Part shown: positions 38,975 through 40,990 of the stretch, in pieces
Position numbering within the stretch: position 1 is the first letter of the stretch
Layout: every line of letters begins with the position of its first letter
Source of the DNA: Bacteroidota bacterium
GTDB taxonomy: Bacteria > Bacteroidota > Ignavibacteria > Kapaibacteriales > UBA2268
Reading direction: 5' to 3'
NCBI GenBank assembly: GCA_024278075.1
Contig: JAJRTW010000270.1
Coordinates: 1-41,091, forward strand
DNA length: 41,091 nucleotides
Notes under the pieces: model-generated
Database searches by the model: none
Seen by the model: the letters and a program-made list of their open reading frames with translations, nothing else
Told to the model about the DNA's origin: nothing
Translations under genes and position numbers: made by a program

Positions 38975-39047
38975 GACTCGTTAGCTCAGTTGGTAGAGCA
39001 TTTGACTTTTAATCAAAGGGCCACAGGTTCAAATCCTGTACGAGTCA
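38975..39047 (+). tRNA. tRNA-Lys (anticodon UUU)
   Basis: The acceptor stem GACTCGT pairs with ACGAGTC. The D-arm contains TTAGCTCAGTTGGTAGAGCA. The anticodon stem TTTGA/TCAAA encloses the loop CTTTTAA with anticodon TTT at 39008-39010. The T-arm is CACAGGTTCAAATCCTGT. The discriminator base is A, and CCA is not encoded (CAG follows). It is 73 nt long. Confidence 0.98.
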
Positions 39048-39058
39048 CAGCTATAAAT

Positions 39059-39089
39059 CAAGGACTTAGGTGTTTTACTTAAGTCCTTG
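39059..39089 (+). terminator. Hairpin downstream of tRNA-Lys
   Basis: CAAGGACTTA and TAAGTCCTTG form a perfect 10-bp stem with an 11-nt loop, 12 nt after the tRNA. The tail TTGTGTTT is only moderately T-rich, so it is a probable but weak terminator. Confidence 0.7.
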
Positions 39090-39202: not shown

Positions 39203-39233
39203 TTTGATATGTACAGAGGATTTGATATATTTG
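39203..39233 (+). promoter_or_regulatory. Bacteroidota-type promoter of the structured leader / methyltransferase
   Basis: TTTG at 39203-39206, then 19 nt, then TATATTTG at 39226-39233, a strong match to TTTG-N19/21-TAnnTTTG. The predicted start near 39240 gives a leader of about 270 nt before the ATG at 39510. Confidence 0.72.
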
Positions 39234-39301
39234 CTTAATATAAAAGAATCAGAACCTATAATCAAAAAAAATAACTCAAAGGATTTACTAAAACAATGAC
39301 A

Positions 39302-39493
39302 CAGGCCAAAGCCTGAACTAAAATATATATAAGCGTTTGCTTATTTGAGTTCTTGATTGAAAACCGACAATTTTTTAATGAGTAAAGAACAAAATAAGTG
39401 ATCGCCCGTAATCCGGGCGGTTTACTTATGTCTTTTACTCAGGGTGCTTGTCGGTACCTCAATCAAGGGCATTTGTTAAATCGCCCTTTTTTT
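39302..39493 (+). ncRNA. Candidate structured leader RNA (attenuator/riboswitch-like or independent small RNA)
   Basis: Five paired elements follow one another. P1 is CAGGC-CAAA-GCCTG (39302-39315). P2 is TAAGC-GTTT-GCTTA (39330-39343). A long rod starts with CTTGATTGA (39352-39360) pairing with TCAATCAAG (39459-39467), then ACCGACAA (39363) with TTGTCGGT (39448), TGAGTAAAGA (39379) with TCTTTTACTCA (39431), ATAAGT (39394) with ACTTAT (39424), and an apical CGCCCG-TAATC-CGGGCG (39403-39419). The rod is followed by a terminator whose 5' arm shares AAG 39465-39467 with the rod. I do not recognise any known riboswitch class. The arrangement suggests conditional termination, but an independent RNA ending at the terminator is equally possible. 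Confidence 0.65.
39465..39493 (+). terminator. Intrinsic terminator inside the methyltransferase leader
   Basis: AAGGGC-ATTT pairs with AAAT-(C)-GCCCTT around a GTT loop, a 10-bp stem with one bulge, and runs into seven T (39487-39493). A GAGGAG Shine-Dalgarno (39499-39504) and the ATG (39510) follow only 6 and 17 nt later, so full-length mRNA requires readthrough. Confidence 0.85.
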
Positions 39494-39509
39494 ATGTTGA
39501 GGAGATATT

Positions 39510-40391
39510 ATGATTGATTCTTATGTTGATTCCATCAAAAGATTCGTTGCCCAAGGCGGCCCGAATGAAGATGAATGGGATTCGTTAACACAATTGTTTG
39601 ATAACATTATGGATGATTACAAAGCCGGAGCGCTGAGCGATGAAGATTTGGACATTATGCGAAAAAGTTTTGGAGATGCATTCTCTTTGGAGACCATGCA
39701 GGGGTATTCTTACCTCCGGCCGAATGGTTATAGCGGCGATTATATTATCATTGACAACATTTATACTAATCATAAGACAAAGAACGAAAAACTTATTGAA
39801 TGGGACAATTATTGTCAGAACACAAAAGCCACAATGGCGGTAAGAAATAGAAAGGATTACTTCATAAATTTACTAAATGAATGCGATAACAACATAAATA
39901 CGGATGTTTTGAACATTGCATCCGGCCCTTGCCGCGATCTTTATGAGTTTTACCAAAAAAAACCTGACAACCGAATTTCTTTTAAATGTATTGAATCTGA
40001 TAAAAAGGCAATTGAATATGCATCCGATTTGCTCAATGGAATCAGTAACAACATTTCCTTTGTCAACAGGAATGCTATCAGGTTTCATAATAAAAAGAAG
40101 TATGATTTAATTTGGTCGGGCGGTCTGTTTGACTATTTTGACGATAAATTATTCATTCATCTAATAAAAAGATTCTATGGTTATCTAAAAGAAAACGGCA
40201 AACTTATAATTGGTAATTTCAGTCCGGCGAATCCAACGAAGAATTATATGGAATTTTTGAAATGGGATTTGAATTACAGGGACGAGGAGCATCTAAAATA
40301 TTTAGCAAAACAATGCGGATTCGAAGAAAATCAGTATTATATTGAATCGGAACCATTAGGCATAAATCTTTTTCTGCATATTCATAAATAA
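39510..40391 (+). CDS. Class I SAM-dependent methyltransferase, PhcB-like (3-hydroxy fatty acid methyl ester type)
   Basis: The 293-aa protein has an N-terminal helical region with YSYLRPNGYSGDYIIIDNIY (about 67-86) and then a Rossmann domain. This has motif I as NIASGPCRD (residues 135-143), an acidic motif II in CIESDKKAIEYA, and the diagnostic IWSGGLFDYFDDKLFIHLIKR and LIIGNFSPANPTKNYMEFL segments (longer ones quoted in part). These match the group annotated as 3-hydroxypalmitate methyl ester (extracellular factor) biosynthesis proteins, whose model is Ralstonia PhcB. Most members are uncharacterised, so the substrate is inferred only at family level. There is a strong Shine-Dalgarno. The gene is AT-richer than its upstream neighbours and lies between a structured leader and a repeat array. 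Confidence 0.8.
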   Translation: MIDSYVDSIKRFVAQGGPNEDEWDSLTQLFDNIMDDYKAGALSDEDLDIMRKSFGDAFSLETMQGYSYLRPNGYSGDYIIIDNIYTNHKTKNEKLIEWDNYCQNTKATMAVRNRKDYFINLLNECDNNINTDVLNIASGPCRDLYEFYQKKPDNRISFKCIESDKKAIEYASDLLNGISNNISFVNRNAIRFHNKKKYDLIWSGGLFDYFDDKLFIHLIKRFYGYLKENGKLIIGNFSPANPTKNYMEFLKWDLNYRDEEHLKYLAKQCGFEENQYYIESEPLGINLFLHIHK

Positions 40392-40429: not shown

Positions 40430-40990
40430 TTTGATGATGATTTGTGTCCTTTGGATGGTGATTTGTGTCCTTTGGATGATGATATGTGTCCTTTGGATGA
40501 TGATTTGTGTCCTTTTGATGGTGATATGTGTCCTTTGGATGATGATATGTGTCCTTTGGATGGTGATTTGTGTCCTTTGGATGATGATATTCCTGTCTTT
40601 GATGGTAATATTCCTGTCTTTGATGATGATATTCCTGTCTTTGATGGTTATATTCCTGTCTTTGATGGTAATATTCCTGTCTTTGATTGTTATATATCAA
40701 GCATTTATGGTGATTTTCTGGCTATGGATGAAGATTCTGTGGCTATGAATGGTGATTTTCCGGCTATTGATTGTTATATATTAAGCATTTATGGTGATTT
40801 TCCGGCTTTTGATGAAGATTCTGTGGCTATGAATGGTGATTATGTGGCAATGAATGGTGATTATCCGGCAATGAATGGTGATTATGTGGCAATGAATGGT
40901 GATTATGTGGCTATGGATTAAGAATTAATGGCAATGAATGATGATACTGTGGCTTTGAAAGATGATTCTACGGTCTTTGAAAGATTGTTT
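40430..40990. repeat. 21-bp-period repeat array, translatable as 26 heptads
   Basis: On the plus strand the frame through 40442 reads as heptads of the form [GD]-D-phi-x-x-phi-D: seven of the CPLD type, five of the IPVFD type, then mixed FLAMD / SVAMN / YVAMN types. Two 28-residue blocks beginning CYISSIY and CYILSIY form a higher-order repeat. The frame has no ATG (first possible start TTG 40442), reaches TAA at 40919-40921, and the heptads continue in the same frame beyond that stop to TGA at about 41000. The minus strand is also open (QRQEYHH and PKDTNHH heptads). Coding status is therefore undecided. It starts about 40 bp after the methyltransferase stop. Confidence 0.85.

Follow-up and report, generated by a model that had tools for sequence, protein, structure and literature searches.

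Our analysis revealed evidence for a structured leader RNA of a family outside Rfam which, judging from sequence, quite likely acts in cis and controls transcription of the next gene by strand exchange. The best reading is probably that of a new class of transcription-attenuating leader RNA, that is, a riboswitch-like orphan. In the window, by which we mean the whole analysed stretch of 41,091 nucleotides, the family element including its terminator occupies positions 39327 to 39493 of the plus strand (167 positions) according to two covariance models, R1 and R2, built from alignments of 17 and 99 sequences, respectively. The window copy scored 160 bits with R1, a value that is not independent since this copy is among the sequences from which R1 was built. 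The original prediction for this region had described an unrecognised structured leader, laid out like a riboswitch or attenuator, in front of a PhcB-like methyltransferase gene. Both the structure and its novelty were supported, as the folds of 39236-39500 (z = -7.3) and 39340-39500 (z = -7.0) were matched in stability by none of 200 shuffles and the family has no Rfam match. The layout held as well, with an own promoter, a competing terminator and a gene on the same strand. What the prediction had missed are the five copies in the genome, the phylum-wide family and two pairings, described below as X:X' and D':T3', that would make the RNA a strand-exchange switch.

The leader is preceded on the plus strand by a perfect match to what we take to be the consensus of the Bacteroidota-type promoter (39203-39233; TTTG at 39203-39206, a 19-nt spacer and TATATTTG at 39226-39233), and a transcript start is expected near 39240, 3' of this promoter. 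It is also kept in the copy on contig C21 of the same genome (85% identity), and a TTTG-N17-23-TANNTTTG motif was found within 160 nt upstream of 49 of 144 copies, compared with 6.0 +/- 2.6 in shuffled sequences and 4 of 138 control stretches. The near-consensus promoter proposed originally therefore stands in place, being of the Bacteroidota type and enriched in the family, but not in kind, since the count of the sigma-70-like match (TTGATA-16-TATATT) was not above chance (14 found, 10.7 +/- 3.4 expected). The leader ends in an intrinsic terminator (39467-39493, plus strand) that consists of the 5' arm T5' (GGGC, 39467-39470), the 3' arm T3' (within 39475-39486, ending in GCCC at 39483-39486) and a run of seven T (39487-39493), with a hairpin of -7.2 kcal/mol in the fold. 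This terminator was preserved in all three full-length copies compared. A simple terminator scan with a loop limit of 8 nt gave no terminator at 39467-39493, probably because the loop is longer than this limit. As foreseen, a Shine-Dalgarno sequence and a start codon follow: AGGAG (39500-39504) starts 6 nt 3' of the T-run, and an ATG at 39510 opens the presumed regulated gene, a plus-strand ORF (39510-40391) for a class I SAM-dependent methyltransferase of 293 aa (PF13649, E = 6e-6). The sole candidate for a leader peptide (ATG ACA CAG GCC AAA GCC TGA, 39296-39316) was not kept in the copy on contig C111, and a leader-peptide attenuator was rejected because no short reading frame carrying regulatory codons is conserved in the leader. 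A lone tRNA of the window (38975-39089), lysine-like by its anticodon loop CTTTTAA, closely precedes the leader and has a terminator hairpin of its own (CAAGGACTTA..TAAGTCCTTG, 39059-39089). Directly 3' of the methyltransferase gene lies a tandem low-complexity array (40431-40990) of units of about 20 nt (GATGATGATTTGTGTCCTTTG and variants), with open reading in both strands.

Compensatory change between members shows a predicted rod of three helices, A:A', B:B' and C:C', capped by a tip X':D'. In the window, strands A (39353-39360), B (39363-39370) and C (39379-39387) are assigned to A' (39459-39466), B' (39448-39455) and C' (39433-39441), respectively, all on the plus strand and by both pair counts and a duplex test, so that the 3' strands together cover 39433-39466. 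The rod spans 39349-39470, its base being extended by GUUC (39349-39352) pairing with GGGC (39467-39470). The whole GC part of the terminator 5' arm is thereby taken by the rod base, and rod and terminator would be mutually exclusive. The competition is thus larger than first proposed, when only the bases AAG were thought to be shared. Among 99 sequences, in an alignment that was fitted to a rod model and so favours the rod, 94.9% of cells were standard pairs (98.5% in B:B' and 97.1% in C:C') as against 68.1% after shuffling and 40-47% with the structure slid. The compensatory changes looked for in homologues were present, with double changes in 28 of the 32 rod pairs. The covariation score was 0.764, compared with 0.237 in shuffled controls, which leave shared ancestry in, so that relatedness of the sequences inflates the significance, and at most 0.125 in slid ones. 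The GUUC:GGGC pairs also vary compensatorily (alignment columns 35-40 with 224-228). An alignment-light test, which compares how well each member's 5' strand binds its own 3' strand and those of other members and needs no base-level alignment, found the cognate duplex to be better in 93.5% (A:A'), 97.1% (B:B') and 95.6% (C:C') of comparisons between 106 sequences. At the variable rod pairs G-U wobbles outnumbered A-C mismatches by 106 to 12, which indicates that the plus-strand RNA is the molecule that folds. Mean pairwise identity between members is only 57%. Strand B is flanked by the conserved internal-loop sequences AAA and AAUUUU and strand B' by GGUG and UACC, and the nearly invariant AAA, GGU and UACC around B/B' are the obvious candidate contact site for a trigger. 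By eye, the GGUG and UACC around B' covary in order-level members of alignment A3 (GGCG..UGCC, AGCG..CGCT), which would fit a short hairpin forming around B' when the rod is absent.

Several strands of the rod have a second potential partner. Strand X (39333-39353; GCG..TTGCTTATTT..GTTCT), assigned by duplex test and window fold, includes part of a small 5' hairpin P1 (ATAAGC/GCTTAT, 39329-39344) that was seen in the fold and, by inspection, in most members. Strand X' (39386-39408; AGAAC AAAATAAGTGA TCGCCCG) can pair either with X, in the window as 39333-39353 with 39386-39405, or through its 3' half with D' (39414-39428; CGGGCGGTTTACTTA) in the rod-tip hairpin. D' in turn can pair with X' or with T3' (-14.8 kcal/mol in the window), and the GUUC toggle with GAAC (39387-39390) of X' in the X:X' state or with T5' in the rod state; all these strands are on the plus strand. 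In the alignment-light test with 106 sequences the cognate pairing was better for X:X' in 83.8% (mean -16.5 kcal/mol), for D':T3' in 80.6% (mean -14.5 kcal/mol) and for X':D' in 79.9% of comparisons, while the local terminator T5':T3' was weakly above background (61.0%) and control strand combinations mostly gave 43-60%, the highest being 70% in one X':C' subgroup. The 41 independent phylum-level members gave 92.8% for X:X', 91.6% for X':D', 75.6% for D':T3' and 73.5% for T5':T3', with controls at 49-65%. By inspection, the GUUC:GAAC partner switch covaries in loci L116, L113, L100 and L078, becoming GGUG:CACC in L116 and GUUU:AAAC in L100, and D':T3' becomes GUAUUC:GAAUAU in L091, L097, L103 and L108. 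Also by inspection, L145, L146, L148 and L158 seem to have lost the local terminator hairpin, and their D':T3' is long and near perfect; a T-run stands at the 3' end of the model in most of the alignment. A further pairing, X:T3', proposed by RNAalifold in the first consensus, was rejected and removed from R2, as the cognate was no better than non-cognate combinations (50.6%). Coevolution thus shows that the predicted pairings X:X' and D':T3' are kept; they share strands with the rod tip and would exclude the whole rod. By a geometric argument, as opposed to a computed one, X:X' and the full rod could not coexist because the paired ends of X and X' are attached, through hardly any linker, to the two opposite rod ends.

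These choices of partner would allow the following switch. In the emerging RNA, X would pair with X' first. Should X:X' persist, D' and T5' would be free, T3' would pair with them beside the U-run and transcription would stop (OFF). Should the rod form, X' would hold D' and GUUC would hold T5', T3' would be left without a strong partner and read-through would follow (ON). The state would presumably be decided by a small molecule, a protein or another trans-acting factor via the conserved B/B' internal loops (AAA / GGUG..UACC). When transcripts of the window, L058 and L145 were folded at increasing lengths, the minimum-energy structure contained X:X' at about 80-100 nt and the rod in longer transcripts. 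For the window transcript, GUUC:T5' was present at 148 nt, and T3' was still unpaired at full length. The ON/OFF polarity, which we infer from thermodynamics only, is the weakest step because full-length minimum-energy folds of other members are mixed, with X:T3' in 44, the local terminator in 43, T3' unpaired in 41 and D':T3' in 11 of the 139 folds classed. D':T3' might conceivably have the opposite role, that of an antiterminator.

A blastn search of the window's genome returned two further full copies, one on contig C21 that includes the promoter (85% identity) and one on C111 (80%), as well as fragments on C39 and C121. On these last two contigs the covariance model detected full copies too, which brings the number of full copies to five. 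Two truncated copies (C39:270-315 of genome G000, L004, and C121:3672-3719, L005) are reduced to the 5' part, with the promoter-proximal AT tract, strand X and little more, and one of them lies directly after a ParE/RelE-like toxin gene. Contigs C121 and C39 overlap by 120 bases, which places two full and two partial copies within a few kilobases. Based on E-values from a shortened calibration, R1 detected the element in 17 of the 54 genomes from the family, the highest number in a single genome being 15, and in 33 of the 123 from the order, and R2 in 57 of 294 genomes sampled from the class and 44 of 396 sampled from the phylum, the last two samples overlapping. Carriers include the metagenome-assembled genomes Ignavibacteria bacterium RIFOXYC2_FULL_35_21 and Bacteroidetes/Chlorobi group bacterium ChocPot_Mid as well as plasmids of Chryseobacterium shandongense and Rhizosphaericola mali, the copy of the former lying near position 60653 of NZ_CP033916. 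Conserved B/B' strings of the RNA are present in six viral contigs; a search of phage records with one far member gave no match.

When genes of 80 aa or more are considered, 130 of 137 copies share their strand with the gene that follows (58/61 in the family, 34/35 in the order, 14/15 in the class and 24/26 in the phylum), and the copies on C21 and C111 directly precede same-strand ORFs. In the window's family the distance to the next gene is within 100 nt for 45 of 61 copies, and a Shine-Dalgarno-like sequence is usually present, gene starts having been chosen mechanically. In several far members the next gene begins 200-580 nt away, and the RNA ending at the terminator may there be a separate transcript. 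The downstream genes are of many kinds. Of ten targets examined closely, six are secreted proteins that carry PF18962, the T9SS sorting domain, among them beta-propellers and a metalloprotease of reprolysin type; others are TonB-dependent receptors, LytTR and LuxR-type response regulators, a sigma factor, a Crp-type regulator, and GmrSD and type III restriction-modification genes. Targets in the window's family include methyltransferases (4), thioester-reductase-like enzymes (PF07993, 4) and an enzyme-like family without assignment (6). At six loci (L059, L070, L071, L085, L094, L107) an AAR-like family of 370-395 aa with the motifs LLAASTKRLFGKE, QDGGNAYIENGLEF and YGCFAET lies directly 3' of the RNA; the member tested had no Pfam match and a profile search with the group had no PDB match. 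An identity of the LLAASTKRLFGKE group with long-chain acyl-ACP reductases, whose layout seemed similar, is not claimed since the PDB profile search was empty.

The original link to a PhcB-like methyltransferase did not survive this comparison. The RNA precedes dozens of unrelated genes, methyltransferase relatives in other phyla are without the leader, and among 28 relatives found with query A7 only two, at the known loci L062 and L068, have it, so that a specific link was rejected and the association is incidental. The enzyme itself matches only generic class I SAM-dependent methyltransferase models and structures, in libraries that hold no PhcB model. Turning to the other neighbours, toxin-antitoxin-like small genes recur upstream on the same strand in the window's family (L009, L057, L060, L062, L063, L071, L074, L075, L077, L085, L105) and were named by eye, not by model, as PIN-like, ParE/RelE-like, DUF4258-like and BrnT-like. 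The same small helix-turn-helix genes lie beside phylum-level copies (L210, L212, L214 and L224, upstream on the minus strand; L204, L206 and L219), and these copies precede SusC-like receptors or RteC-like genes, which would fit a place in conjugative elements. A retron-type reverse-transcriptase-like gene was found about 450 nt downstream of the copy at L201.

Taken together, a same-strand gene, an own promoter, an intrinsic terminator and the coevolved exclusive pairings X:X', X':D', D':T3' and GUUC:T5' are the features of an attenuator. Such a leader might respond to a protein or a global factor, such as an antiterminator protein, a NusG-like factor or translation/ribosome status, and not be a metabolite riboswitch at all. 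We consider this a real possibility, if not the one we would favour. Its very diverse targets are united by no single pathway, and its helices vary strongly while few of its loop bases are invariant, as in protein- or kinetics-sensing leaders; however, AAA, GGU and UACC are nearly invariant, as in small-molecule aptamers, no partner gene consistently adjoins the RNA among the neighbour genes inspected, and no conserved reading frame is held by the leader (the 39296 ORF being absent in C111). The conserved internal loops may at most hint at small-molecule binding of the kind that would define a riboswitch. A 6S-like or other independent small RNA, ending at the terminator and acting in trans with the downstream gene merely adjacent, was the alternative named originally and now appears unlikely. 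It would fit the own promoter and terminator and the distant next gene (200-580 nt) of far members, and dispersed multi-copy small RNAs exist and provide a precedent. Against it are the high copy number per genome, the fact that 130 of 137 copies are followed by a gene on their own strand, which in the window's family mostly begins less than 100 nt away, the widely differing downstream genes expected of a recruited leader, and the covariation of GUUC:GGGC and D':T3', neither of which a pure terminator would need.

It is very improbable that the element is a mobile DNA repeat or a single-strand DNA recombination site (attC-like, REP-like) that folds by chance. Multiple scattered copies, some on plasmids and viral contigs, the toxin-antitoxin genes often found upstream in the window's family and the two truncated copies in one genome would be in keeping with such a repeat, but the wobble asymmetry of 106:12 points to RNA on one strand, and this together with the orientation (same-strand next gene in 95%) led us to reject an attC/REP-type site. 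Moreover, a promoter is kept in front and a T-run at the end, inspection found no integron attC core sites (GTTRRRY/RYYYAAC) at the alignment ends, and a mean identity of 57% is unlike that of recently transposed repeats. We also think it improbable that this is a known family missed by Rfam tools or one already present in a non-Rfam catalogue. Large candidate lists are not all in Rfam, and thousands of candidate structured RNAs have been reported from human microbiomes (PMC8040213). Yet neither the window nor 20 far loci reached the gathering threshold of any Rfam 15 family, and eight diverse members gave no match with E up to 0.5, in agreement with the original failure to match the leader to SAM, SAH, preQ1, c-di-GMP or other classes by their core motifs; the best permissive hit in the window, U12 snRNA, was spurious (23.7 bits, gathering score 53). 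A text search of indexed literature for the conserved strings found no match either. The family is thus new relative to Rfam 15, the search beyond Rfam having been one by text strings.

If the leader reading is true, it would add a leader RNA class that extends over much of Bacteroidota, with up to 15 copies per genome, and that controls surface, secretion, signalling and defence genes of mostly uncultured bacteria. It would also be an example of rare clarity, in that the two folds of the switch, and not only the sensing domain, are conserved enough for covariation tests. For four copies in the window's genome the following gene is readable; two of these genes, on C241 and C111, encode methyltransferases related to each other, one on C39 is thioester-reductase-like and one on C21 encodes an oxidoreductase-like protein with a Rossmann fold. 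These four genes, few as they are, give a hint of a signal-making circuit. It is a long shot that the sensed compound is a diffusible signal, probably derived from an acyl group, or a new second messenger, and that several target genes of the RNA help to produce it; if so, the RNA might represent a phylum-wide, RNA-based switch of community or surface lifestyle. The plasmid copies of Chryseobacterium and Rhizosphaericola provide named carriers in which the trigger can be sought by ordinary genetics.

Compared with known RNAs, the family shares a long irregular rod with 6S RNA, whose Rfam model had no match in the window, but differs in its up to 15 copies per genome, where one or two would be expected of 6S RNA, its position before genes and its competing strands. 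Flavo-1 RNA of the Flavobacteriaceae is likewise a multi-copy structured element of Bacteroidota and is represented in Rfam; it is reported to show no consistent orientation to transcripts (PMC9723704), while the RNA described here is strongly oriented and has no Rfam match to Flavo-1. The class of c-di-GMP riboswitches, before its ligand was known, presented a similar picture of many copies before unrelated genes for surface proteins, receptors and regulators. The present RNA has a different fold without the two-helix GEMM core and also precedes restriction-modification genes and possible signal-making enzymes. With terminator-type riboswitches such as those for fluoride and ZMP it has in common the leader position, an own promoter, a folded domain and exclusive pairings that would decide on the terminator. 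It differs from them in being without a known aptamer sequence, Rfam match or known ligand and in having targets outside any one pathway, and its alternative strands X, X', D' and T3' are themselves conserved throughout the family.
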